A DNA stretch of 33,309 nucleotides. Source: Bacteroidaceae bacterium. GTDB taxonomy: Bacteria > Bacteroidota > Bacteroidia > Bacteroidales > Bacteroidaceae. The translations under genes were made by a program, and so were the position numbers. The DNA lies in assembly GCA_017541025.1 (NCBI GenBank), contig JAFXZY010000018.1, positions 1 through 33,309 of the forward strand, read 5' to 3'. Of this stretch, positions 14,669 to 29,308 are shown one piece after another. The notes beneath the pieces are model-generated. The model was not told the origin of the DNA. It made no database searches and saw nothing but the letters and a program-made list of their open reading frames with translations. The number at the start of each line of letters is the position of its first letter. The first letter of the stretch is position 1.

Positions 14669-14675
14669 CTTCTTT

Positions 14676-14707
14676 CATCCCTTGGAGGGGAGGTCGGAAG
14701 GGGTCTC
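14676..14707 (+). repeat. GC-rich hairpin repeat, copy H
   Basis: The short imperfect hairpin CATCCCTTGGAGGGGAGG is followed by a G-rich tail (GGAAGGGGTCTC). It belongs to the repeat family described for the suf region and lies in the gap between prdX and its terminator. This copy is on the + strand, opposite to the flanking genes. Confidence 0.6.
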
Positions 14708-14770
14708 TGGAGGGTCCATCACCACGGGTCCTTCACTTTCGGCGGACAACAGGTATATAGTTCCCTTATA

Positions 14771-15939: not shown

Positions 15940-16602
15940 TTACCACTGGATGGGCTGCTGTCCATGCTGCTGCAGATATTGGTTGCACAAGTTGAAATGG
16001 TTGTTGCCGAAGAATCCCCTATAAGCACTCAGAGGACTGGGATGTGCCGACCGCAGAATACAATGCCTGCCTGCATCTATCAAGGCAGCCTTCTTTCCTG
16101 CAGGAGCCCCCCAAAGCATAAAGACCAGACCTTCACGCTCACGACTTAATGTACTGATAACGGCATCCGTAAACGATTCCCATCCGTGTCCACTATGACT
16201 GAAAGCCTGATGCTGACGCACGCTCAGACAGGTGTTCAGCAGGAACACGCCCTGCCTGGCCCATCTGGTCAGATTCCCGCTCTGTGGCATGGGAGCGCCC
16301 GTTTCTGCCTCTATTTCCTTGAAGATATTTACCAGTGAAGGAGGAAACGGCACCCCGTCATTCACGCTGAAGCACAAACCGTGTGCCTGACCGGGTTCGT
16401 GATAAGGGTCCTGACCCAAGATGACAACGCGCACCTGGTCGAAGGGCGTGGTATCAAAGGCATTGAAGATAAGTCGGCCTGGAGGATAACAAACGCAGGA
16501 GCCATACTCCGAGCGGACAAACTGTGTCAACTGCTCAAAGTATGGCTTCTCGAATTCTGTATTCAGATGAGCCTTCCAGCTCTCTTCTATTCTAACGTTC
16601 AT
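15940..16602 (-). CDS. ung: Uracil-DNA glycosylase (family 1)
   Basis: Base-excision repair enzyme that removes uracil from DNA. It has 220 residues. The catalytic water-activating motif GQDPYHEPGQAHGLCFS starts at 63 (Asp65). The uracil-binding region LLNTCLSVR and the DNA-minor-groove loop HPSPLSAYRGFFG (187-199, His187) are intact. It is probably co-transcribed with the DUF3109 gene. The 58-base gap to gpmI upstream contains a GC-rich hairpin repeat. Confidence 0.96.
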   Translation of the reverse strand: MNVRIEESWKAHLNTEFEKPYFEQLTQFVRSEYGSCVCYPPGRLIFNAFDTTPFDQVRVVILGQDPYHEPGQAHGLCFSVNDGVPFPPSLVNIFKEIEAETGAPMPQSGNLTRWARQGVFLLNTCLSVRQHQAFSHSGHGWESFTDAVISTLSREREGLVFMLWGAPAGKKAALIDAGRHCILRSAHPSPLSAYRGFFGNNHFNLCNQYLQQHGQQPIQW

Positions 16603-16621: not shown

Positions 16622-16659
16622 TCTCCTCCCTCTCTCGGGGGGAGGTTGGGAGGGGGGCT
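16622..16659 (+). repeat. GC-rich hairpin repeat, copy G
   Basis: CTCCTCCCTCTCTCGGGGGG followed by AGGTTGGGAGGGGGGCT: a pyrimidine arm, a purine arm and a G-rich tail. It fills almost the whole gap between ung and gpmI and ends 1 base before the gpmI stop codon. The element runs on the + strand, opposite to both genes. Confidence 0.75.
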
Positions 16660-16660
16660 A

Positions 16661-18178
16661 TTACTTTATCAGGCACTTACCTGTCATATCGACAGGCTGC
16701 TCCAGTCCCATGATATGCAGGATGCTGGGAGCCACATCTGCCAATACACCGTTCTCTACCTTAGCATCCTTGTTCTCTGTTACATAGATGAAAGGAACAG
16801 CATTCAGGGAGTGCGCCGTATTGGGAGTTCCGTCGGCATTCAAGGCATTGTCGGCATTTCCGTGGTCGGCAATGATGATGGTCTCGTAACCCACCTTCTT
16901 GGCGGTCTCTACCACCTCGTTCACGCACTGGTCAACGGCCTTAACAGCAGCCTCGATAGCCTCGTAAACACCTGTATGGCCTACCATATCGCCATTGGCA
17001 AAGTTAACTACGATAAAGTCGTACTTATCCTCCTTGATGGCAGCCACCAACTTATCCTTAACCTCAAAGGCACTCATCTCGGGCTTCAAATCGTAAGTGG
17101 CAACCTTAGGACTGGCAACCAAGATACGCTCCTCACCCTCGTAGGGAGCCTCACGACCTCCATTGAAGAAGAAGGTTACATGAGCGTACTTCTCCGTCTC
17201 GGCCGTATGCAACTGCTTCAGGCCCTTGCTGCTGATATATTCGCCCAACGTATTGTTGACATTCTCCTTGGGGAAAAGAATGTGTACGCCTGTGAAGCTG
17301 GCATCGTATGGAGTCATACAATAGTACTGAAGGCCGGGGATGGTCTTCATACCCTGTTCTGGCATATCCTGCTGGGTGAGCACGATAGTCAGCTCCTTGG
17401 CACGGTCGTTGCGATAGTTAAAGAAGATTATCACATCGCCTTCCTTGATGGTACCGTCGATGGTGCTATTATTGATAGGCTTGATGAACTCGTCTGTTAC
17501 GCCCTCGTCGTAGCTTTCCTGCATAGCTTCCACCATATCGGTGGCCTGCTTGCCCTCGGCACTAATCAGCAAATCGTATGCAATCTTCACACGCTCCCAG
17601 CGCTTATCACGGTCCATCGCATAGAAACGACCGACGATGCTGGCAATAGCAGCATTACCTGCCTCGTTGCACTTAGCCGTAACTTGTTCGATAAAGCCCT
17701 TACCGCTCTTGGGGTCGGTATCACGACCGTCCATAAAGCAGTGAACAAAGGTATTCTGAACCTTATATTCCTTACCAATCTCAATCAGTTTGAACAGATG
17801 ATCCAGTGAAGAGTGAACGCCACCGTTGCTAGTAAGACCCATCAGATGAACATTCTTGCCGTTGAGCGTTGCATACTCGTATGCATTTACGATTTCCGGG
17901 TTCTTCAGGATGCTTCCGTCAGCACAGGCACGGTTAATCTTTACCAGGTCCTGATAGACAATTCTTCCTGCACCGATATTCAGGTGACCTACCTCGGAGT
18001 TACCCATCTGTCCGTCAGGAAGACCGACATTCTCGCCACAAGCCAGCAACTGGCTGTTGGGATAGTTCTTCTGCAAATAATCCATGTAAGGAGTTGGTGT
18101 ATTGAAGATAACATCACCCTTACCCTTATTACCGATGCCCCAGCCGTCCAGGATCATCAAAAGTGCTTTCTTTGCCAT
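16661..18178 (-). CDS. gpmI: 2,3-bisphosphoglycerate-independent phosphoglycerate mutase
   Basis: Mn-dependent glycolytic enzyme interconverting 3- and 2-phosphoglycerate. It has 505 residues. The alkaline-phosphatase-type metal site includes [10 protein letters not shown] (Asp11), and the phosphoserine motif is [18 protein letters not shown] (Ser61). Later metal ligands are in [25 protein letters not shown] and [10 protein letters not shown]. Length and motifs are complete. It has a probable promoter 41 bases upstream. Confidence 0.97.
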
Positions 18179-18265: not shown

Positions 18266-21200
18266 TTATTTCAACACCACTTTTTTACCACCTACAATGT
18301 ACAATCCCTTTCCCGCATTACTTATCCGCTGACCATTCAGGTTATATACAGTCCCTTCGTTATGAATGACGGATTGAGGATTATGAATTTCCTTAACACC
18401 TGTTGTGGCTTCCCACTCATCAAGGTCGCCGACAATGGTACCATAGTTTTTCCAGTCGGAAGCCTTGTATTTTGCGAGGGCGCTGGCATAGACATGGATA
18501 ACGGGATTGCTGCTGAACGTGTAACCGTTGGTACTGGGAGGCGTGAGTGCCTTGACATAGACATCCTTAACCGCAGATTCGTAGAAGGCACCTTTCGACA
18601 AAGTCTTTATGCCCTTGCCTAAAATGACGGTATTCAGACTGCTGCAATAGGCGAATGCGTCTTCCTCGATAGTTGTTACTTTGTCGGGAATATCAATCAT
18701 CCTAAGCCCCGAAGAGGAGAAGGCGTTGTAGCCAATCTTGGTAAGCGTCTGGGGAAGTTTCATGGCAACAAGTTTCGTAAACCCTTGGAAAACATAGTCA
18801 CCAAGGATGTTATTTGCGGTAATCTTGTAGCTCTGGTAGTATGCTAGACCGCCTGACATAACCTGGGCATCTGTAAGGTCGATAGATGCCAGGTGATTTT
18901 CGGTAATAAGCTTACGCATGTGTTTGATGTCCGTTCCGTTAAACTTCCCGCTAAGGATAAGCTTTACGGTCTGGTCGGACATACTGTTGGGAAGCTGTCC
19001 GACCTTCTCCAATGTAACATGTTCCTCACCGCCCTCTGCCTTAGCGACTTCGTGCATCGTACCGTCTGCATCAATGGAGTAGATGGTAAAGTCACGGCCC
19101 ACACTCCTGGGAATGCAGATGTCCCTGGCATTGGAGGCATACTTGAGATTACCTTCTTCATCCTGCATCAGGAAGCCTACACCTCCCTTACCATCCAAAG
19201 CATAGAGGCTGTCGGCCTTCAGACATACATACGCCGAGGGCTCGCATGCGCCCGGACGATAGCTGGTGAACTGACCCACGTCGCCACACTGACCTAACTG
19301 TTCGCCGCTGCGATAGTAACGCTGTTTTCCTGCCGTAGTAACAAAACCTGTGGTAGGAACATTCTCCACGCGATCCTCAACAAAGATTATCTCGCGGTTC
19401 TTTTTCTCATATTGGGAAATCTTTCTTTTTGTGCTGTTAATGTCCAGTTGCCTGTTGGTAACATAATGGTCACCGTAGCATTCCAGGTAGCGATTGTTAG
19501 CCGGTTCAAAGAAACCGTAAACAGTGAAGAAATCGGTAAGGTCTTCCTGTGCGACCTCGCATACCTTGCGCACAAACTTCAGACCCGAGTTGTTGGTATT
19601 TGAACCATAGGGAACTATCCTGTCCGTACGCAATGCCTTAAAGAGTTCAGGGTAGAACGATGTGTTCTTCTGTCCCTGATGATAGTAGAGGTAAAGAGAG
19701 TAGTACATACGGAGGCAACTGTTATCAACCGGTCTCCAATAGAAAGGTTCATGTTTCGAGAATTCCTGCATGGTAACACTCAGGGGCCTGCCGGTAGATG
19801 CTCTGTGACCCATAAGGAAACGGCAAATGTTAGCAAAAAGGTCGTTGCTGCCTTCTGTAACACCCTCCAGCATGATAGGAGACTGCAGCTGATGTCCGAA
19901 TTCGTGTGCAATACCTCCCTCGTCATACCCGTCTATAGATGTGCTGTAAGGATTCAGGAAATACTGGGAAGCACCTTCGGAAAGGTGAATGCCAAACTCC
20001 GTGGCATGGGCATAAGAACCGGGCGAGTCGTTATCTACGAATGTGGGGTTATTGAAATAGCCCGGGTAAAAGGCGTCACCGCCTGTAATATACCAAGGTG
20101 CCCCTGCTTTTTCTCCGTTAGCGACGGATTCGCAGATGCCGGTAACGTCTTTTTCCCATACCGAAAGGCTGTCGGTACACTCAACAGTCTTGGCAATCTT
20201 ATTCGGGTATCTTTTCCTGAGGATGGATGTCCAAATGCTCAGGACAGAATGTTTACCCTTCATGACGAAAGCAGAATGGGTGGCATTAGCAAGCAATTTC
20301 TTGTAATCGGTATCGGTATGCCGTGAAGCATCGAAGTAACCCTCTACCTTACCACCTTCGATGTGTATCTTTATCTCGGGCCACTCGCTGACCCGTTTGG
20401 TCATTGTCTTTGTGTCAACTGTATATAAAATATAGAATAGTTTACCTGCATCACCATCAATAATATTGAGACCTTTCTTGAGCTTCTGACCTGTCTTCGC
20501 ACTTGTAATCATCTTATCAACTCCAATGCCTGCTATATACAGTGTGGCATCGGAAGGAACATCGCTGTCAACAAAGACATACAGCTGCTCTGTGTAAGAT
20601 TGGGAAAGGATACCTGTTGGGTTACCCATATAGGAAGCGGCCCTACTCCAAAGTTTATCGTTCCAATACTTGGCATCGCTGTAAGCCTTGTAACTGTGAA
20701 TACGGAATTCCTGTTCGTAGGCTGCCCATGAGTTGTTCTTCACCTTGAGAGCAATATTGACCATATACTCAGGCATACCGCCCTCTGTCATAGCTGTGGT
20801 TAAAGCCTCGTCACTCATGGCCTGGTATTCAGCTTTCAGCTGCGTACATGCCGCATCCTCGAAGAAGTTGCCAGTCAACTCGCTGACGACATCACTTTCC
20901 TCCGGTTCCTCCGGATAAAAGTTTGCCAGTGAACCGTAGATATTGCTATAATATTCTTTCCATGCCGACGATGCCTTATAGTCAGCCAATGCATCCTTAT
21001 AGACATACATGGTAACCTTCGAACCAAACAGATAGGATGATATGGCAGGAGGTGTCATGGGCTTCACATAGGCTTTAGTGACAGCAGAGCCGTAGAACGC
21101 CCCTTTGCTCAGTTGGTTTACCTTTTTACCGATAACAACCGTTGCCAGCGAATTACAATACGCAAAAGCATCCTCGCCAAGCGACCTGACGCTGTTAGGA

Positions 21201-21616
21201 ATGTCTATAGTCTTTAGGGCCGTTCCAGCAAAAGCATTCTTCTGGATAGTTGTAGCAGTATTAGGCAACAACATTGCCTGAAGCTTCGAGCAGTTATAGA
21301 ACATCTTCTCGCCTACAACATCATCTGACGTTGTAAAATTCTCGTTGTAGGCCTCGCCACCTGAAACGATGCGGACTTCCGACCAGTCAAGCGAAGTAAC
21401 TGTTCCATTAGTGACCAACGAACGGATGTACTTGATGTCGGTACCGTTAATGTAGCCCGTCACCCTGAGTTCCTTTTCTGTCGATGACAGAAGCGAAGAG
21501 AGCGTGCCTGCCGTTTCCACATGAATCTCAGTCCTTGACCAAACGCTGGTGGAGACGAGACAGGTCATAGCTGCCAGTAGCAGTCTTAAAATTCCATTGG
21601 TGTTGTTTTTATTCAT
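18266..21616 (-). CDS. Secreted M60-like metallopeptidase flanked by two BspA-type LRR modules
   Basis: It has 1116 residues with an N-terminal signal sequence (hydrophobic 11-27). A first BspA/TpLRR-like module (about 35-230) has FYNCSKLQAMLLPNT and AFAYCNSLATVVIGKK. A central M60/enhancin-like region (about 340-700) has the zinc motif HEFGHQLQ (571-578) in GGIAHEFGH, with a candidate third ligand Glu588 in VTEGSNDLF. A second LRR module (about 866-1065) is homologous to the first (AFAYCSSLNTVILGKG). The C-terminus is YNLNGQRI..GKGLYIVGGKKVV. M60 peptidases are known to cut mucin-type glycoproteins; that substrate here is inference. It lies between rnhB (48-base gap) and gpmI. No promoter was recognised directly upstream. 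Confidence 0.88.
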   Translation of the reverse strand: MNKNNTNGILRLLLAAMTCLVSTSVWSRTEIHVETAGTLSSLLSSTEKELRVTGYINGTDIKYIRSLVTNGTVTSLDWSEVRIVSGGEAYNENFTTSDDVVGEKMFYNCSKLQAMLLPNTATTIQKNAFAGTALKTIDIPNSVRSLGEDAFAYCNSLATVVIGKKVNQLSKGAFYGSAVTKAYVKPMTPPAISSYLFGSKVTMYVYKDALADYKASSAWKEYYSNIYGSLANFYPEEPEESDVVSELTGNFFEDAACTQLKAEYQAMSDEALTTAMTEGGMPEYMVNIALKVKNNSWAAYEQEFRIHSYKAYSDAKYWNDKLWSRAASYMGNPTGILSQSYTEQLYVFVDSDVPSDATLYIAGIGVDKMITSAKTGQKLKKGLNIIDGDAGKLFYILYTVDTKTMTKRVSEWPEIKIHIEGGKVEGYFDASRHTDTDYKKLLANATHSAFVMKGKHSVLSIWTSILRKRYPNKIAKTVECTDSLSVWEKDVTGICESVANGEKAGAPWYITGGDAFYPGYFNNPTFVDNDSPGSYAHATEFGIHLSEGASQYFLNPYSTSIDGYDEGGIAHEFGHQLQSPIMLEGVTEGSNDLFANICRFLMGHRASTGRPLSVTMQEFSKHEPFYWRPVDNSCLRMYYSLYLYYHQGQKNTSFYPELFKALRTDRIVPYGSNTNNSGLKFVRKVCEVAQEDLTDFFTVYGFFEPANNRYLECYGDHYVTNRQLDINSTKRKISQYEKKNREIIFVEDRVENVPTTGFVTTAGKQRYYRSGEQLGQCGDVGQFTSYRPGACEPSAYVCLKADSLYALDGKGGVGFLMQDEEGNLKYASNARDICIPRSVGRDFTIYSIDADGTMHEVAKAEGGEEHVTLEKVGQLPNSMSDQTVKLILSGKFNGTDIKHMRKLITENHLASIDLTDAQVMSGGLAYYQSYKITANNILGDYVFQGFTKLVAMKLPQTLTKIGYNAFSSSGLRMIDIPDKVTTIEEDAFAYCSSLNTVILGKGIKTLSKGAFYESAVKDVYVKALTPPSTNGYTFSSNPVIHVYASALAKYKASDWKNYGTIVGDLDEWEATTGVKEIHNPQSVIHNEGTVYNLNGQRISNAGKGLYIVGGKKVVLK

Positions 21617-21664
21617 AATATAGTGATTTAAGATTTGTTGTTTTTCTGTTTTTGTAAGGTCTTT

Positions 21665-22321
21665 TCAACCGAAATCAAATTCCAACTGTTGTGTATCCCC
21701 CAATAGGTTAAAACTCATCCTGTGGTAAGGCGTCGTACCATACTGACGGATAGCCTCGCGGTGCACCTTAGCCGGATAGCCCTTGTTCTTGTCCCAATGA
21801 TACTGGGGAAACTCCTCGTGGATGCGCAGCATGAAGTCGTCCCTGTATGTCTTTGCCAAAATGCTGGCTGCTGCGATAGAGAGATATTTACCGTCACCCT
21901 TTACAATGGTGGTAGCCGGCACAACTTTTGGCTCGTTATCGTTATCGTTAACGTTATCGTTAGCCGTAAGCTCTTGATACGGTTTCCATCGGTTGCCGTC
22001 CACAATGATATACTCAGGCCGAACGGTCAACTGATCCAAGGATCGGTGCATAGCCAGAATGCTGGCATTAAGAATGTTTATTTTATCAATCTCCTTATTA
22101 TCGACAATTCCCACAGCCCAAGCCAAGGCCTCACGTTCTATAACCTCCCGCAACTGATAGCGCTTCTTCTCGGTCAGCTGCTTGGAGTCGTTCAGCATCT
22201 CGTTCCTGAAGTCGGAGGGCAGAATCACAGCTGCGGCAAACACAGGGCCTGCCAGACAACCACGGCCAGCCTCATCACAACCGGCCTCAATCAGTCCTTC
22301 TTTATAATATGCTTCTAACAT
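21665..22321 (-). CDS. rnhB: Ribonuclease HII with in-frame repeat insertion
   Basis: Removes RNA from RNA-DNA hybrids, including single misincorporated ribonucleotides. It has 218 residues. The catalytic DEAGRG motif is at 16-21 (Asp16, Glu17), Asp108 is in IIVDGNRWKPY, and SIAAASILAKTYRD (148-161) supplies the last acidic residue. Between Asp108 and KGDGKY the sequence TANDNVNDNDNEPK (119-132) replaces a shorter loop. It is encoded by GATAAC-type hexamer repeats and is probably a tolerated loop insertion. It lies downstream of sufS with a 51-base gap and is likely transcribed with it. Confidence 0.95.
   Translation of the reverse strand: MLEAYYKEGLIEAGCDEAGRGCLAGPVFAAAVILPSDFRNEMLNDSKQLTEKKRYQLREVIEREALAWAVGIVDNKEIDKINILNASILAMHRSLDQLTVRPEYIIVDGNRWKPYQELTANDNVNDNDNEPKVVPATTIVKGDGKYLSIAAASILAKTYRDDFMLRIHEEFPQYHWDKNKGYPAKVHREAIRQYGTTPYHRMSFNLLGDTQQLEFDFG
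21934..21963 (-). repeat. In-frame GATAAC hexamer array inside rnhB
   Basis: Five hexamer units (CGTTAT, CGTTAT, CGTTAA, CGTTAT, CGTTAG on the + strand) encode the Asn-Asp-rich segment of RNase HII. The same hexamer (GATAAC) occurs as tandem units in non-coding sequence at 30658-30674. Confidence 0.85.
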
Positions 22322-22330
22322 CTTTAAGTA

Positions 22331-22362
22331 GCCTCACCCAGGTCCTCTCCAAAGAGAGAGAA
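22331..22362 (-). repeat. GC-rich hairpin repeat, copy I (diverged)
   Basis: On the - strand, TTCTCTCTCTTTGGAGAGGA precedes CCTGGGTGAGGC. It is a pyrimidine arm, a purine arm and a G-rich tail with the family's layout but lower GC. It occupies the sufS-rnhB gap. Confidence 0.5.
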
Positions 22363-22379
22363 CCTCAAAACCTCAAAAC
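22361..22379. repeat. Octamer tandem repeat containing the sufS stop codon
   Basis: AACCTCAA-AACCTCAA-AAC (two units and a partial third). The sufS TGA stop (22375-22373 on the - strand) is inside the second unit. Confidence 0.75.
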
Positions 22380-23686
22380 ATCTGCCTTACTCTATTTATG
22401 CCGGCCACCAAGGCATCCACCTCTTCACGGGTGTTGTATAAGGCAAAGCTGGCGCGGCAAGTTCCCTCAATACCCAATCGGTGCATCAAGGGTTCCGCAC
22501 AATGGTGTCCTGTGCGGATGGCAATCCCCAACCGGTCGAGCAACGTTCCCATATCCAGATGATGGATAAAACCCCTCTCCTGACCTCCCCCGAGGGGAAG
22601 GAATAGTTGGAAACTGATGACAGCGTCGTGCTGTTCAATATCCTTGGGCCCGAAGATGTGCATACCCTCTATCTCATTCATTTTCTGCATAGCATAGGCG
22701 GTAAGATCACGCTCATGGGCTCCGATGGCATCCCAACCCAGTGCACTGACGTAATCCAATGCCCGTGCCAGACCTGTGCTGGCTACATAGTCGGGCGTGC
22801 CGGCCTCGAACTTGAAGGGAAGTTCATTAAAGGTTGTTTTCTCGAAAGATACATTCTTTATCATCTCACCGCCACCCATATAAGGTGGAAGTTTCTCTAA
22901 CCATTTCTCCTTACCATACAAGACACCGATACCCGTAGGGCCGTAAATCTTATGACCGCTGAAAGCAAAGAAGTCGCAATCCAACTCCTGTACATCTACC
23001 TTCATGTGGGGCGTACTCTGAGCGCCGTCTATCAGCACGGGCACTCCATGTTCGTGGGCAATACGGATAATCTCTTTAACGGGATTGACGGTTCCCAATA
23101 CGTTACTTATATGTGTCACACTAACGATACGCGTGCGGTCGGAAAAGAGTTTTTCATATTCTTCCATCCGCAGTCGTCCGTCATCCGTGATAGGAATTAC
23201 GCATAGCTTAATGACTTTACGCTGCTGTTGCAACTGCCAGGAGACGATATTGCTGTGATGCTCCATCTCACTGACAATCACCTCATCGCCTTCCTTCATG
23301 AAAGCATCGGAGAAGCACTGAGCCACCAGATTGATGCTCTCCGTGGTGCCTCGAGTGAAAATAATCTCGCTGGTGCTTCGGGCGTTCAGGAACTTCCGTA
23401 CCGTTTCCCTGCTGCCCTCATGCAGTTCTGTGGCCTGCTGTGACAGGAAGTGAACGCCTCTGTGTACATTGGCATTCACGTTATAATATTCCTCGGTCAT
23501 AGCCTCCACCACAACACGGGGCTTCTGCGTAGTAGCTGCGTTATCCAGATAAACCAAAGGGTACTTCCCATAGATGGTCTTATCAAGGATTGGAAAATCG
23601 TTTCGGATCGGACCCACCCCCATCCCCTCCCTTGTATGGAGGGGAACAATTACTTTTTCTATCTTATTATTCTCTATTATACTCAT
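22373..23686 (-). CDS. sufS: Cysteine desulfurase SufS with repeat-derived insertions
   Basis: PLP enzyme that takes sulfur from cysteine for Fe-S assembly. It has 437 residues versus about 405 usually. Landmarks are LVYLDNAATTQKP, the PLP-binding SGHK (Lys246), and RTGHHCAEPLM with the sulfur-carrying Cys396. Extra length comes from residues 361-372 (LFLPLGGGQERG), inserted just before IHHLDMGTLLD, and from residues about 11-27, which contain a second repeat copy. The latter could be avoided if translation starts at Met22 (23623), which would give the usual distance to DFPIL. The longer start is kept because MSIIENNKI also looks family-like. It follows sufD after 59 bases. Confidence 0.93.
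   Translation of the reverse strand: MSIIENNKIEKVIVPLHTREGMGVGPIRNDFPILDKTIYGKYPLVYLDNAATTQKPRVVVEAMTEEYYNVNANVHRGVHFLSQQATELHEGSRETVRKFLNARSTSEIIFTRGTTESINLVAQCFSDAFMKEGDEVIVSEMEHHSNIVSWQLQQQRKVIKLCVIPITDDGRLRMEEYEKLFSDRTRIVSVTHISNVLGTVNPVKEIIRIAHEHGVPVLIDGAQSTPHMKVDVQELDCDFFAFSGHKIYGPTGIGVLYGKEKWLEKLPPYMGGGEMIKNVSFEKTTFNELPFKFEAGTPDYVASTGLARALDYVSALGWDAIGAHERDLTAYAMQKMNEIEGMHIFGPKDIEQHDAVISFQLFLPLGGGQERGFIHHLDMGTLLDRLGIAIRTGHHCAEPLMHRLGIEGTCRASFALYNTREEVDALVAGINRVRQMF
22571..22601 (-). repeat. GC-rich hairpin repeat inserted in frame in sufS, copy E
   Basis: On the - strand, CTTCCCCTCGGGGGAGG is followed by TCAGGAGAGGGGTTTT. The hairpin arms are CCCCTC/GAGGTC-like with a G-rich tail, as in the intergenic copies. 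It is read as Leu-Pro-Leu-Gly-Gly-Gly-Gln-Glu-Arg-Gly-Phe. Confidence 0.85.
23610..23644 (-). repeat. GC-rich hairpin repeat at the sufS N-terminus, copy D
   Basis: On the - strand, CCCCTCCATACAAGGGAGGGG precedes ATGGGGGTGGGTCC. The arms CCCCTCC/GGGAGGGG are strong. If translated from the upstream ATG it gives Pro-Leu-His-Thr-Arg-Glu-Gly-Met-Gly-Val-Gly, in the same phase as copies E and F. An in-frame ATG (23623) lies inside it. Confidence 0.85.
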
Positions 23687-23711
23687 CCAATGATGTTTGT
23701 TCTTATTTTTT

Positions 23712-23747
23712 CTCCCGCCCTAAAGGGAGGGACGGGGAGGGTCCCTT
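23712..23747 (+). repeat. GC-rich hairpin repeat between sufD and sufS, copy C
   Basis: CTCCCGCCCTAAAGGGAGGG followed by ACGGGGAGGGTCCCTT. It has a clear hairpin and G-rich tail and runs on the + strand. Its last bases overlap the sufD stop codon. It fills most of the 59-base sufD-sufS gap. Confidence 0.85.
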
Positions 23748-24966
23748 ATTTACAAAGTTTGCATCCTTCGCACTTTGAAAGTTCGCCTCTGAGACGCTTG
23801 TCCACCAATACATGTAGGCGGTCTCTGAGTGCTTCAAGGGGGATGGTCTCTATCACCTCGGTAATAAATGCCGACTTCAGCAAGAGTCTGGCTTCCTGCT
23901 CCGATATACCACGCTGACGCATATAGAAGAGGGCCTCATCGTTCATCTGACCCACCGTACTGCCATGACTGCACTTTACATCATCGGCATAGATTTCCAG
24001 CATAGGCTGGGTGTACATACGGGCTGAGGAGGTAGCACAGAGATTAGCATTGGTCTCGTTGCTGATGGTTTTCTGAGCGCCTTCACGCACCAGGATTCTG
24101 CCGGCAAAGGCACCTACAGAACTGTCGTCCAATACATATTTGTAGAGTTCGTTGCTCTGGCAGCAACCCACCTGATGGTCTATCAGCGTATTGTTATCTA
24201 CATGCTGGGTCTTATCGGCTATCACACAACCATTCAGGATAACCCCGGAGCCTTCGCCTTTCAGACTTACGTCCATGCGGTTACGGGTATGCCCGTTAAA
24301 GAGCGTAAAGCTGGTGTGATGTACATGACTGTCCCTCCCCTGCTGGACGAAAACACTGCTATAACGGGTGCAAAGCAGATGGGTCTCTTCCACCTCGTAC
24401 AGATTCAGATGACTGCCGTCACCGGCAAAGACTTCCACCACCTGATTAGAAAGGAAGTGCATCTGATCCACCGCTTTATCTGTTATGACGATATCAGCCT
24501 CGGCACACTGCTCCAGAATGATAAGGATGCGACGGTTTACCATCGTGTCCTGTTCTCCCTTCAGCACGTTGCTTATCTGAATGGGGTGCTCCACTTTGGT
24601 ATTGCGTGGTACATAGATGACCAAAGCATCCACACTGAGCATGGTGTTCAGTGCCACCACAGCATCTTGCCTGTCCGCCAGTTTGTTATAGTATGGGGTA
24701 ACATCCACGGGAGCTTCGCTGATACGATGGCAATAAGGAAGATTCTTCACTTCCAGCGGAGTCAGTGCTATGCCGTAGTCGGGAGCAAAATCCTCCGCCA
24801 CGTCGGTATATTTGTAGCGTTCCACCTTCTTTGTGGGGAAACCAAGGGCCGAGAAAGTCCGCAAAGCCTCAGCACGAGGGGCATTCATCACCTCGCAAGA
24901 GCGCTCGCAGATAAGTTTTCCTGCCTGAGCGTAGAAATCTGTATATTGTCTTGTGTCCTCTGCCAT
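23746..24966 (-). CDS. sufD: Fe-S cluster assembly scaffold subunit SufD
   Basis: Partner of SufB and SufC in the SufBC2D scaffold. It has 406 residues. An N-terminal helical region with FPTKKVERYKYTDV precedes the beta-helix core. The C-terminal SufB/D signature includes KCSHGSTVGQMNDEALFYMRQRGISEQEARLLL and the end KCEGCKLCK. The His in KCSHGS corresponds to the residue near the SufB-SufD interface (family knowledge). It lies 3 bases after sufC in the same operon. Confidence 0.95.
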   Translation of the reverse strand: MAEDTRQYTDFYAQAGKLICERSCEVMNAPRAEALRTFSALGFPTKKVERYKYTDVAEDFAPDYGIALTPLEVKNLPYCHRISEAPVDVTPYYNKLADRQDAVVALNTMLSVDALVIYVPRNTKVEHPIQISNVLKGEQDTMVNRRILIILEQCAEADIVITDKAVDQMHFLSNQVVEVFAGDGSHLNLYEVEETHLLCTRYSSVFVQQGRDSHVHHTSFTLFNGHTRNRMDVSLKGEGSGVILNGCVIADKTQHVDNNTLIDHQVGCCQSNELYKYVLDDSSVGAFAGRILVREGAQKTISNETNANLCATSSARMYTQPMLEIYADDVKCSHGSTVGQMNDEALFYMRQRGISEQEARLLLKSAFITEVIETIPLEALRDRLHVLVDKRLRGELSKCEGCKLCK

Positions 24967-24969
24967 AGC

Positions 24970-25722
24970 TTACAGGCCTACTTCTTCCTTTATCCAGTCG
25001 AAACCGCGATTCTCTATCTCCAAAGCCAGTTCCGGACCGGCTGTCTTTACTATCATTCCACCGATAAGCACATGTATAATGTCGGGCTTCAGGTAATCCA
25101 GCAAACGCTGATAATGGGTAATCACCAAGGCGCTTGTCTGGGGCGTGCGAAGCTTGTTGAACCCCTCGGCCACAATGCGCAAAGCATCTACATCCAAGCC
25201 GCTGTCTGTCTCATCCAGAATACTGAACGTAGGTTCCAACATAGCCATCTGGAAAATCTCGTTGCGTTTCTTTTCTCCACCTGAGAAACCTTCGTTCACG
25301 CTTCTGCTGGTCAGCCGGCTATCCAACTCGACAATCTTACGCTTCTCACGCATCAGCTTCAGGAAATCGCCGGCACTTAAAGGTTCCTCGCCCTTGTACT
25401 GACGCTTGGCATTCAGTGCTGCACGCATAAAGTTGACCATGCTTACACCGGGAATCTCCACAGGTTGCTGGAACGACAGAAAGATACCTTCGTGAGCACG
25501 TTCCTCGGGTGCCATCTTCAACAGGTCCTTGCCGTTGAAGATTATCTCGCCTTCTGTCACCTCATAGGCGGGATGTCCCACAATCACATTGCTCAGCGTA
25601 CTTTTACCGGCACCGTTCAGTCCCATTATGGCATGCACCTCACCGTCTTTTACGGTCAGGTTGATACCTTTCAGAATCTCCTTGCCATTTATTGTGGCAT
25701 GTAAATTATTTATCTGTAGCAT
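24970..25722 (-). CDS. sufC: Fe-S assembly ATPase SufC
   Basis: ABC-type cytoplasmic ATPase that drives the SufBCD scaffold. It has 250 residues. Walker A is GLNGAGKS (34-41), the Q-loop is in FLSFQQPVEIPG, the ABC signature variant is SGGEKKRNE (147-155), Walker B is SILDETDSGLD (167-177), and the switch His is in ITHYQRLLDYL. The FSGGEKKRNEI form is typical of SufC. It is preceded by a 103-base gap holding an inverted pair of hairpin repeats and followed by sufD after 3 bases. Confidence 0.97.
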   Translation of the reverse strand: MLQINNLHATINGKEILKGINLTVKDGEVHAIMGLNGAGKSTLSNVIVGHPAYEVTEGEIIFNGKDLLKMAPEERAHEGIFLSFQQPVEIPGVSMVNFMRAALNAKRQYKGEEPLSAGDFLKLMREKRKIVELDSRLTSRSVNEGFSGGEKKRNEIFQMAMLEPTFSILDETDSGLDVDALRIVAEGFNKLRTPQTSALVITHYQRLLDYLKPDIIHVLIGGMIVKTAGPELALEIENRGFDWIKEEVGL

Positions 25723-25736
25723 AATTATCTCAACTC

Positions 25737-25771
25737 AAGCCCCCTCCCCGCTCCCCCTTTGGGTGAGGGCC
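25737..25771 (-). repeat. GC-rich hairpin repeat in the sufB-sufC gap, copy A
   Basis: On the - strand, CCTCACCCAAAGGGGGAG is followed by CGGGGAGGGGGCTT. It is oriented with the genes and opposite to copy B 26 bases away. Confidence 0.85.
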
Positions 25772-25826
25772 TTAATTATTTTACTCTCAATTTATCACTC
25801 CCCCTAGGGGGAGATGGAGGGGGCTT
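25737..25826. repeat. Inverted pair of hairpin repeats (A and B) between sufB and sufC
   Basis: AAGCCCCCT (25737-25745) is complementary to AGGGGGCTT (25818-25826), and CTCCCCCT (25751-25758) to AGGGGGAG (25806-25813). The pair could form one long interrupted stem, or each copy could form its own hairpin, within the sufB-sufC transcript. The apical part is AT-rich. Confidence 0.8.
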
Positions 25827-25827
25827 T
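25798..25827 (+). repeat. GC-rich hairpin repeat at the sufB stop, copy B
   Basis: CTCCCCCTAGGGGGAG is a perfect palindrome, followed by ATGGAGGGGGCTTT. The tail reaches into the sufB stop codon (25826-25828). Confidence 0.85.
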
Positions 25828-27274
25828 ACCCTACGCTTCCTTCCAGACTCACGCCTAACAGCTTCTGTGCTTCTACGGCGAACTCCATGGGCAGTTTGTT
25901 AATCACCTCTTTGGCATATCCATTCACTATCAGGCTCACAGCCTCCTCAGTATTGATACCACGTTGATTGCAGTAGAAAAGCTGGTCTTCCGATATCTTG
26001 CTGGTCGTAGCCTCATGCTCCACAACGGCCGTATTGTTGTGTACGTCCATATAAGGGAAGGTATGAGCGCCGCACTTGCTGCCTAACAACAACGAATCGC
26101 AACTGCTGTAATTGCGGGCATTGTCGGCCGTCTTAGCCACCTTTACCAAACCGCGGTAGGCATTCTGACTCTTCCCTGCGCTGATACCCTTGCTGATAAT
26201 GGTGCTCTTGGTGTTCTTGCCGATGTGAATCATCTTGGTGCCCGTATCAGCCTGCTGATAGTTGTTGGTCACGGCCACGCTGTAGAACTCGGCCTGCGAG
26301 CCTTCGCCGCTCAGCACACAGCTGGGGTATTTCCATGTGATGGCACTACCCGTCTCCACCTGTGTCCAGGAGAGCCTGCTGTTACGTCCCCTCAGATGTC
26401 CGCGTTTGGTTACCAGGTTCAGCACACCGCCCTTGCCCTCGCTGTCACCGGGGTACCAGTTCTGGACAGTACTGTACTTCACCTCGGCATTCTCCTTCAC
26501 TACAATCTCCACGATGGCAGCATGTAACTGGTTCTCGTCGCGCATCGGAGCCGTACAGCCTTCCAGATAACTCACGTATGCATCATCGTCGCAGACGATA
26601 AGGGTGCGTTCAAACTGACCCGTTCCTCTGGCATTGATGCGGAAGTAGGTACTCAGCTCCATCGGACAGCGTACACCCTTGGGGATATACACGAAGGAGC
26701 CGTCAGAGAATACTGCCGAATTAAGGGCTGCAAAAAAATTGTCCCTGTACGGCACCACCGAGCCCAAGTATTCACGCACCAGTTCGGGGTGTTCCTTCAC
26801 CGCCTCGCTGATGGAACAGAAGATAATTCCCTTCTCTTTCAGTTTCTCGCGGAAGGTGGTCTTCACGCTCACCGAATCCATCACAGCATCCACAGCCGTA
26901 CCACTCAGTGCCAGACGTTCTTCCAAGGGAATTCCCAACTTGTCGAAGGTCTTCATCAACTCAGGGTCAATAGCACCCTCTTTTCCCCCAAGTGGGGATT
27001 TTTTCGTCGGATCGGCATAGTAAGAAATGTCCTGATAATCTATTTCGGGCATCTTCAAGTGTCCCCAAGTGGGAGCCTCCAGCGTTTGCCAGTAGCGGAA
27101 CGCCTTCAGTCGGAACTCCAGCAGCCAGTCGGGTTCGCCCTTTTTCTGTGAAATAAGACGCACCACATCCTCCGAGAGTCCTTTATCTATCACCTCGGTC
27201 TGCACATCGGTAGTGAAGCCGTACTGGTACTTCTTCTCCGCTACCTCTCGCACAAACTCATTCTTTTCTTCCAT
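25826..27274 (-). CDS. sufB: Fe-S cluster scaffold protein SufB with short repeat-derived insertion
   Basis: Core scaffold of the SUF system on which the cluster is built. It has 482 residues. Family landmarks are [55 protein letters not shown], and the C-terminal [17 protein letters not shown] (Cys401) and [14 protein letters not shown]. Residues 93-100 (SPLGGKEG) form an extra piece between YADPTKK and IDPELMKTF and are encoded by a hairpin repeat copy. First gene of sufBCDS; a possible -7 box lies just upstream. Confidence 0.96.
26973..26998 (-). repeat. GC-rich hairpin repeat inserted in frame in sufB, copy F
   Basis: On the - strand, TCCCCACTTGGGGGA is followed by AAAGAGGGTGC. It is a shortened copy with a clear hairpin, read as Ser-Pro-Leu-Gly-Gly-Lys-Glu-Gly in the same phase as copy E in sufS. 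Confidence 0.75.
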
Positions 27275-27294
27275 TCATATTTCTATTTGGGCGA

Positions 27295-27302
27295 CAAAAT
27301 TA
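27295..27302 (-). promoter_or_regulatory. Possible -7 box of the suf operon promoter
   Basis: TAATTTTG on the - strand matches TAnnTTTG and lies 20 bases before the sufB start. No TTTG is seen at the usual -33 distance, and the leader would be very short, so this is tentative. Confidence 0.35.
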
Positions 27303-27409
27303 CGATTTTTATTTGGTTTATCTTTGATAAACAACATTTTTTTCTGTTTACATAATAAAAAAACACTCATAACAAACGCACAAACATTTGTTTTTTTGCC
27401 TCTCTATCC

Positions 27410-27440
27410 TTTGGCGTTTGATAAAATAGTATTATCTTTG
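27410..27440 (+). promoter_or_regulatory. Bacteroidetes-type promoter of the L-galactose locus
   Basis: TTTG (27410-27413) and TATCTTTG (27433-27440) have a 19-base spacer. The predicted leader is about 30 bases to the ATG at 27477. The rest of the 202-base divergent gap (27275-27476) is AT-rich with no other recognised site. Confidence 0.8.
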
Positions 27441-27476
27441 CGGTGTTATAAACAAAAAAACGACAACTTTAAACTA

Positions 27477-28424
27477 ATGGAATACCGAAAACTTGGAAAA
27501 ACCGGCTTGCAGGTTTCTGCGCTGAGCTTTGGTGCCTCGTCGCTGGGCGGGGTCTTTCACACGATAGACGAAGGACGGGCCGTTGAAACCGTCGGCGTAG
27601 CCCTCGAAGGGGGCATGAACCTGATTGATGTCTCACCATACTACGGCCATTATAAAGCCGAGACGGTGCTGGGAAAAGCCCTGCGCCAACTGCCTCGCGA
27701 CAAATACATTCTCTCTACTAAGGTGGGACGCTACGGCAAGGATGGCGTGAACACATGGGACTACAGCGGCAAACGGGCGCAGGAAAGCGTCTATGAAAGT
27801 ATGGACCGACTGGGCGTGGAGCACATCGACCTGATTCATGTTCACGACATTGAGTTTCAGGCTTCACTCCCCGGTGGTTTGCAGAAGGTCGTGGATGAGA
27901 CACTGCCGGCACTCGTTGAACTAAAGCAGAAGGGCATCGTGAGCCACGTAGGCATCACCGACCTGCAAATCCCCAACCTGCGCTGGGTCATCGACCACAG
28001 CCCCGAAGGTACCGTTGAGACCGTACTGAACTTCTGCCATTATTGCCTGAACGATGATGCGTTGGCCGATAATCTGGATTACTTCGAGAGTCACGGCATA
28101 GGTCTTATCAATGCCTCACCCCTCAGCATGGGCTTACTCTCCATGCGTGGTGTACCCGACTGGCACCCGGCTCCCAAGCCTTTGGTAGAGGCCTGCCGTC
28201 GTGCAGCAGAACATTGTGCCGCCAAGGGCTATCCCATCGAGAAGCTTGCCATGCAGTTCTCTGTGAGCAATCCCCGTGTGCCTTCTACCCTGTTTTCTTC
28301 TGCTAATCCCGACAATGTGCGCCGTAACCTGCAATACATCAGCGAACCCATCGACTGGCAGCTGGTACGCGAGGTGCAAGAAATCATTGGCGACCAAAAA
28401 CGCGTGACATGGAAAAACAGTTGA
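27477..28424 (+). CDS. Aldo/keto reductase, probable L-galactose dehydrogenase
   Basis: NAD(P)-dependent oxidation of L-galactose to its lactone is the likely role; L-fucose is an alternative substrate. The start at 27477 gives 315 residues beginning MEYRKLGKTGLQVSALSFGA. The frame is open 88 codons further upstream, but that part crosses the promoter and has no family likeness. The AKR tetrad is Asp51 and Tyr56 (DVSPYYG), Lys82 (TKVGRYG) and His121 or His123 in LIHVHDIEF. VLNFCHYCLND and NASPLSMGLL..PDWHPAP closely resemble plant L-galactose dehydrogenase (recalled, not searched). It overlaps the next gene by 16 bases. Confidence 0.88.
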   Translation: MEYRKLGKTGLQVSALSFGASSLGGVFHTIDEGRAVETVGVALEGGMNLIDVSPYYGHYKAETVLGKALRQLPRDKYILSTKVGRYGKDGVNTWDYSGKRAQESVYESMDRLGVEHIDLIHVHDIEFQASLPGGLQKVVDETLPALVELKQKGIVSHVGITDLQIPNLRWVIDHSPEGTVETVLNFCHYCLNDDALADNLDYFESHGIGLINASPLSMGLLSMRGVPDWHPAPKPLVEACRRAAEHCAAKGYPIEKLAMQFSVSNPRVPSTLFSSANPDNVRRNLQYISEPIDWQLVREVQEIIGDQKRVTWKNS

Positions 28425-29308
28425 TTGTTGACGCCCATAGCCATCTGTGGCTGAAGCAGGATACTTTAGTGGATGGCTGCCCCATCCGCACGCTACAGCC
28501 GAATGGCAGCCGGTCGGAATTCTTCGGCGAGGAGCGCCAGATGCTGCCACCCTTTATGATTGACGGCAAGAATACTGCCGAGGTGTTCCTTTCTAATATG
28601 GATTACGCCCAGGTGGGTGCTGCCGTTGTGGTGCAGGAAGTCATCGACGGCAACCAGAATGCCTATCTCACCGAGGTGCAGGCTAAGTACCCCGACCGCT
28701 TCTTCTGCATGGGTATGACCTGGACGCTGGAGGAAGCAAAGGCCGTCCGTACTGCCGGATTGAAAGGCATTGCCTTCCCAGGGCATCGCATAAAGGAACC
28801 GCTGCACTCGTTTATGCCTATCTTCAAATTCATGGAGGAGCAGGACATGGTGCTGTCGATGTGCTTAGGCGAAGACCCTCGTCAGATAGCAGAGATGGCT
28901 GAAGTAATCCAGGAATGCCCCCGACTGAAGGTTGCTATCGGACACTTCGGAATGGTTACCACACCGGCTTTCGAAAGTCAGGTAAAACTGGCTTTAGAGG
29001 GTCCGAACGTGATGATTGAATCAGGCGGCATCACCTGGCTCTATAACAGCGAGTTCTACCCCTACCCTTCTGCCGTGCGCAGCATTCGTCAGGCTGCCGA
29101 CTGGGTCGGCATAGACCGTCTGATGTGGGGCTCTGACTACCCTCGCACCATCACAGCCATCACCTATCGCATGAGTTACGACTTCCTATTCCGCAGCAAC
29201 CTTCTCACCCCCGATGAGATAGGCGCTTTCCTGGGAGGAAATGCCAAACAGTTCTATGGCTTCGGTCCCCTCCCCACCCTACCTTATATAAAGAATATGA
29301 GTGAATAA
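28409..29308 (+). CDS. Amidohydrolase (COG3618), probable L-galactono-1,5-lactonase
   Basis: It has 299 residues. The metal-site HxH is in VDAHSHLW (His10, His12). Later ligand motifs are GHFGMV (His179) and LMWGSDYPR (Asp243), which fit COG3618 lactonases acting on sugar lactones. Between the dehydrogenase and the transporter, it most likely hydrolyses the lactone made by the upstream enzyme; L-fuconolactone is an alternative substrate. Its start lies inside the 3' end of the upstream gene (16-base overlap), implying translational coupling. The gap to fucP (19 bases) contains short ATAACC repeats. Confidence 0.86.
   Translation: MEKQLIVDAHSHLWLKQDTLVDGCPIRTLQPNGSRSEFFGEERQMLPPFMIDGKNTAEVFLSNMDYAQVGAAVVVQEVIDGNQNAYLTEVQAKYPDRFFCMGMTWTLEEAKAVRTAGLKGIAFPGHRIKEPLHSFMPIFKFMEEQDMVLSMCLGEDPRQIAEMAEVIQECPRLKVAIGHFGMVTTPAFESQVKLALEGPNVMIESGGITWLYNSEFYPYPSAVRSIRQAADWVGIDRLMWGSDYPRTITAITYRMSYDFLFRSNLLTPDEIGAFLGGNAKQFYGFGPLPTLPYIKNMSE

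Follow-up and report, generated by a model that had tools for sequence, protein, structure and literature searches.

In bacteria, the best-known examples of mobile DNA within functional proteins come from Rickettsia. SufS is an essential enzyme; in a 33,309-nucleotide stretch of the genome of a gut Bacteroidaceae bacterium (hereafter, the window), its gene encodes an extra segment at residues 361–372 (LFLPLGGGQERG), which a preliminary description read as a copy of a GC-rich hairpin repeat that also lies between adjacent genes. Is this segment a copy of such a repeat, how did it come to lie in the gene, and what does its presence mean for the protein?

The sufS gene (22373..23686, minus strand) is an intact open frame encoding a cysteine desulfurase of 437 amino acids, matches Aminotran_5 with an E-value of 1.8e-145, and retains Cys396. 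The preliminary description located the segment correctly but gave its extent as 22571..22606; the exact replaced segment is slightly larger, comprising 39 nt at 22568..22606 (minus strand) that code for L361–F373 and occupy the part of a SufS loop between Q360 and I374. The loop lies, as had been described, 24 residues before the catalytic cysteine in an otherwise intact gene, and an alignment of 35 SufS rows shows no variation at I374 or Cys396. The segment is missing from 4w91, 5vpr, and 5xt5, the best three of 95 matched chains, and from the closest relative found (G104), in agreement with the statement that usual SufS sequences have no counterpart to it.

In the repeat unit, which measures about 32–39 nt, a G-rich tail (GGGAGGGGGCT) follows the hairpin CTCCCCC-nnn-GGGGGAG; the unit occurs dispersed, both singly and in divergent pairs. 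We used two covariance models, the first built from 44 copies (four from the window region, with two further window copies entering via loci L011 and L012) and the second, R2, from 37 copies with zero window sequences. A strict pattern gave 47 matches in the window's genome versus none in a reversed control, and at E ≤ 0.01, with 150 of 871 candidates scored, the first model finds at least 113 copies in this 3.28-Mb genome. Where two copies lie less than 200 nt apart, 20 of 21 pairs are divergent and one is same-strand. Two consensus-like copies fold, as DNA, somewhat better than shuffles (z -1.5 and -1.9). The consensus, CACTCCCCCAAAGGGGGAGCnGGGAGGGGGCTT, contains neither a GTAG nor a CGTC tag, Rfam gave 0 matches above the gathering score in window positions 21000–28000, and in the literature, at the level of titles and the starts of abstracts, we found no description of this repeat in these bacteria. 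Matches are present in 109 of 139 genomes of the genus, the window's included (E ≤ 0.001, stricter filters, at most 48 candidates scored in each), and in 59 of 201 genomes of the family, representing 11 of 30 genera in an even draw that included the genus itself.

The sufS segment belongs to this repeat. R2 places the copy at 22567–22605 with 23.2 bits and an E-value of 1.2e-4 over the window, and the nearest copy (L026) is identical in 30 of 36 columns. Compared with 47 other copies, the segment reaches a best match score of 24, whereas the maximum in 500 mononucleotide shuffles is 16 (0/500 as good). The preliminary description needs a correction here: the hairpin of the sufS copy is degenerate and folds, as DNA, no better than its own shuffles (z 0.28). 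Ordinary variation in the length of the SufS loop, with a native extension whose G/C richness merely resembles the repeat, might be proposed instead, and long loops with no evident likeness to the repeat do occupy the same site in other lineages (the EVKPLGATKDTPY type in 8 rows, the LVRQPGIPETDTSFEHF type in 3, and EVSSATGEV in L117), the EVKPLGATKDTPY and LVRQPGIPETDTSFEHF types each forming one supported clade. The E-value from the window-free model, the shuffles, and a nearest relative that is short between identical flanks largely refute this reading, which we regard as very improbable. The idea of an assembly artefact draws on the state of the window's genome (95 contigs, 84% complete) and the tendency of assemblies to fail at repeats, but the sufS copy differs from all 47 strict copies compared, lies inside a contig, and has counterparts at the same site in 12 other tree rows labelled repeat-filled, so that an artefact is hardly credible.

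The SufS of G104 is 98% identical to that of the window, and the two genomes, both draft assemblies and that of G104 a metagenome assembly, form a pair of filled and empty alleles. In place of the 39-nt segment, G104 has GTGGGCAAT, 9 nt encoding V-G-N, and the adjoining DNA is identical for 131 nt in one direction and 36 nt in the other. The window protein reads FQ-LFLPLGGGQERGF-IHHLD, and short relatives mostly read FQVGN-IHHLD. The segment had been called an insertion, which is right in that it is extra in-frame DNA; the difference is, however, a local replacement of 9 nt by 39, with a net gain of 30. Between sufS and the next gene (window 22330–22375), which we take from its sequence to be ribonuclease HII-like, a further repeat-like hairpin is present in G104 and missing from the window.

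Presence and absence of the segment were then followed in a quick tree of 79 SufS rows, 68 from the genus and 11 from an outgroup of Bacteroides, Phocaeicola, Paraprevotella, and Prevotella records. Manual labels gave 13 rows with a repeat, 12 with another long loop, and 54 empty. The site is short in 43 of the 68 genus rows and in all 11 outgroup rows, and because of the latter the short state is taken as ancestral. Scored as repeat versus the rest, the tree requires at least eight state changes, or seven if only R2-confirmed rows count; these numbers are rough, because one outgroup row is placed on the wrong side and 28 of 76 inner branches are open. R2 recovers a SufS-site copy in 10 of 33 relatives searched (L037, L041, L042, L043, L047, L054, and L081–L084, of which L084 is outside the tree), the matches being assigned to the gene by arithmetic on positions. 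At E ≤ 0.1 it finds no copy at this site in L033, L044, or L053, all labelled repeat by hand. L054 and a 24-row clade are separate from the window's clade in the SufS tree. Among other named records, L204 and L233 carry long SufS loops of another kind.

Genomes with a filled SufS site also carry more copies of the repeat, with a median of 37.5 (n = 14) versus 9 (n = 42; p 0.002), or of 44 (n = 11) versus 9 (n = 42; p 0.0004) when three doubtful genomes are left out; both comparisons ignore kinship, and they use SufS states typed by hand for the 56 genomes and counts from at most 48 candidates per genome. The distribution of states bears on a further possibility, namely that the clade acquired the insert long ago and that some members, G104 among them, have since lost it or recovered the short form through recombination with a relative whose site is empty. 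The repeat of G136 (L041) and that of the window have a GGTCAGGAG tail in common, and a remnant-like stretch of eight residues (LVAQEGSF) occurs in L033, which belongs to the window's clade, as such a history would lead one to expect. Nevertheless, this supported clade of eight rows contains six empty ones, with L033 a possible remnant, the outgroup is uniformly empty, and the identical flanks mean that the replacement tract in G104 would need to be small. We consider an old insert unlikely.

An AlphaFold model of SufS computed from the 35 rows (mean pLDDT 78, pTM 0.81) puts the segment between predicted strand 356–363 and predicted helix 376–385, with pLDDT below 50 at residues 367–369, in keeping with an apparently disordered loop. 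SufS with this loop presumably works normally. The loop might instead be selected, tuning SufS activity, partner binding, or expression via an mRNA hairpin. Its location shortly upstream of the catalytic cysteine and the repeated switching of the site within the genus are in keeping with a function of this kind, but the sequences vary widely among species, including short, decayed-looking, and unrelated forms, and DNA folding gives the sufS hairpin no more stability than its shuffles; selection for the loop thus appears rather improbable, and we retain the reading in which it is tolerated.

That a palindromic repeat is tolerated in frame, as had been proposed, draws support from the nearly identical relative whose site is empty and from the occurrence of this repeat in further genes. 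Copies are also carried by GltB, QueA, an RsmF-like protein, a sugar epimerase, and a CarA-CarB linker; five joined query pieces were searched in eight relatives. The in-frame copies of the window's genome add 21 nt in GltB, 18 nt in the RsmF-like methyltransferase, and 36 nt in the GlcNAc 2-epimerase relative to repeat-free relatives. In the epimerase, the repeat is present in the window's genome and G123, with a gain of 12 residues, and missing in six other relatives. In GltB, it is shared with G104 and absent in G033 and G089 (three relatives compared), and in the RsmF-like protein it is again shared with G104 and absent in five other relatives. At one QueA site, the window's genome and, by eye, five of seven relatives have repeat-like segments that differ in sequence, and none of the seven offers an empty site of clear form; stop codons were flagged in four of the QueA matches, the joined query piece having begun before the likely start. 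In the CarA-CarB fusion, the linker is hypervariable and contains repeat pieces. The RsmF-like copy sits on top of another repeat, which codes for LNSQLSTLN-type peptides.

This second, less GC-rich repeat (TCAACTCTCAACT) codes for such peptides in L248, L249, L256, L258, and L260, and it occupies the same positions in the RsmF-like protein, QueA, and the CarA-CarB linker. CarA and CarB form one open frame in the window's genome (L025, 1–2760) and in seven relatives (L241, L242, L245, L247, L250, L251, and L260); frames of about 1080 amino acids matching CarB are also present in seven of the eight relatives searched.

At the junctions in SufS, the RsmF-like protein, the epimerase, GltB, and QueA, inspected by eye and with ambiguous boundaries, no target duplication was seen. 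The copies replace 8–10 native nt in SufS, the RsmF-like protein, and the epimerase, and more in GltB, also by eye. Because native nucleotides are replaced with no target duplication, the copies may have originated by gene conversion or a microhomology event.

The consensus of the repeat is open in all six frames, and the 47 strict copies are open in 121 of 141 forward and 104 of 141 reverse frames, compared with 63% for random 39-mers. Codon scoring of the 113 copies placed 12 inside genes, 18 at gene ends or in uncertain positions (sufS among these), and 83 outside coding frames. Under the same strict codon test, which misses known in-gene copies such as that in the RsmF-like gene, copies are rarer inside genes (12/113) than random positions (208/545). 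A bias in the orientation of in-gene copies was also considered and set aside: codon scoring gave 27 of 30 forward, yet several reverse copies occur in long ORFs (for example, in L001, L002, L018, and L143).

Further copies lie elsewhere in the window. A divergent pair separates sufC and sufB, with one half at 25734..25772 (minus strand, 47 bits) and the other at 25793..25829 (plus strand, 31.5 bits), both identical in G104. Single copies occur on the plus strand between sufS and sufD (23710..23748, 18.8 bits, E 0.0019), between the ORFs at 15940–16602 and 16661–18178 (16624..16662, 28.4 bits, the repeat identical in G104), and, more weakly, in the intergenic region at 14673..14710 (19.1 bits, E 0.0016). 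SufS itself has a second repeat-like segment in frame at its N terminus (VPLHTREGMGVGP; 23612..23646, minus strand), which is a marginal match (12.2 bits, E 0.13), represents a divergent subfamily, and is identical in G104. Neither this segment nor the genus-wide recurrence at the SufS site was part of the preliminary description. The SufS N terminus of L083 contains tandem GENCRESLTPQ units, apparently an expanded repeat-derived segment. A weak match (15.4 bits, E 0.017) at window 29260–29306 lies at the C-terminal end of the ORF at 28409–29308, where G104 failed to align. A segment in the SufB N terminus, considered as a third copy in a suf gene, was dropped, as it is not among the model matches and G104 has another repeat there. 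That site (window 26955–27005, L151) is variable, and G104 codes for AGNSGNSGNSG from a tandem GGAAATTCC repeat.

What moved the repeat was approached through candidate HUH transposases. PF01797 had no match in the window's genome at E ≤ 0.001, and it matches in 62 of 139 genomes of the genus, many of the matches weak. These 62 genomes have a median of 11.5 repeat copies versus 7 in the 77 without (p 0.026; at most 48 candidates scored in each). This link is weak, since 5 of the 20 genomes with at least 40 counted copies, the window's among them, lack a PF01797 match. For a 419-amino-acid HUH protein encoded by G104, three loci of the window's genome contain distant homologues (E < 1e-9), with no repeat copy near them in the stretches examined; a fourth match is very weak (E 0.17, no HUH motif found) and has a divergent repeat pair about 0.7 kb away. 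With a loose pattern, a copy was found at 4 of 30 transposase loci of relatives, one of which (L079) has a divergent pair upstream of a Y1 transposase, and none was found on the 3.6-kb G104 contig with the NHIH/YIHQNP gene. HUH-type proteins of about 420 amino acids (L137, 2321–3599; L121, 859–2118) are distantly like REP-associated tyrosine transposases, and the one from the window's genome contains four tandem units of an internal repeat (GEAQGTMLRREDI).

Comparison with known systems places the repeat close to REPs, which are described as dispersed hairpin units of 20–40 bp, often in close opposite-orientation pairs and some inside ORFs of known proteins, with GTAG and CGTC tags defining their classes (PMC3733652). 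Like REPs and REPINs, it is a short hairpin unit with a high dispersed copy number, divergent pairs, and some intragenic copies; unlike them, it has no GTAG/CGTC tag, no RAYT gene was found flanked by it, and the same protein positions are struck repeatedly in different species. A G104 protein has NHIH and YIHQNP motifs resembling those listed for TnpA-REP subclass 2.6, REP-type HUH transposases of Bacteroidetes reported to be associated with atypical secondary structures (PMC6006769), although the window's genome has no PF01797 match at threshold. The Rickettsia palindromic elements (RPEs), to which the segment had been likened, are palindromic repeats that lie in frame within metabolic genes, which appear to tolerate them (PMC10969869, PMC3733652). 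By analogy, the repeat works like RPEs in its behavior, as an in-frame palindromic repeat apparently tolerated in a metabolic gene. The parallel does not extend to the unit, which is far shorter (about 32–39 nt versus about 150 bp according to a MITE review, PMC10969869), occurs in another phylum, and forms REP-like divergent pairs; RPEs were compared by description only. By this comparison, intragenic REPs are the nearer precedent.

Considered as a whole, the evidence makes it likely that the sufS segment derives from a REP-like mobile repeat, a copy of which entered a variable loop, kept the frame, and was tolerated. The match of the segment to the repeat, the allele without it, the unbroken reading frame, and the recurrence at the SufS site are shown; the degenerate sufS copy, the lack of a mobiliser linked to the repeat, the absence of a target duplication at the junctions compared, the scarcity of in-gene copies under the codon test, and the draft state of both assemblies count against this reading. 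From its REPIN-like arrangement, we infer that the repeat was probably mobilised by an HUH transposase, through single-strand (HUH/RAYT-type) transposition or copying. A copy would have entered the length-variable loop between the predicted strand and helix, displacing three residues (VGN) while keeping the frame (+30 nt), and would add a short flexible peptide at a permissive position. Selection may then have filtered out only frame-breaking events. The copy would persist in SufS because the C/G-rich repeat rarely has stops in any frame and codes for a Gly-rich, apparently disordered loop.

Intragenic REPs and in-frame RPEs have been described before (PMC3733652, PMC10969869). What seems to be new is that identical protein positions are used repeatedly across the genus and that empty and filled alleles exist as natural pairs. 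In proteins predicted from these genomes, peptides like LPQRGSGEGA or SPLPTREGLGEG are probably translations of repeats and not domains. With filled and empty alleles occurring in nearly identical relatives, tolerance, neutrality, and usefulness can be tested directly on natural enzyme pairs differing by one loop. More tentatively, and with somewhat less than even confidence, we propose that in this one rumen Bacteroidales genus a REP-like element is a continuing source of new protein loops, repeatedly entering, in different species, the same permissive loops of core enzymes (the C-terminal site and N terminus of SufS, QueA, GltB, the RsmF-like protein, and the CarA-CarB linker). If this is true, loop evolution there would be driven by mobile DNA, not by point change.
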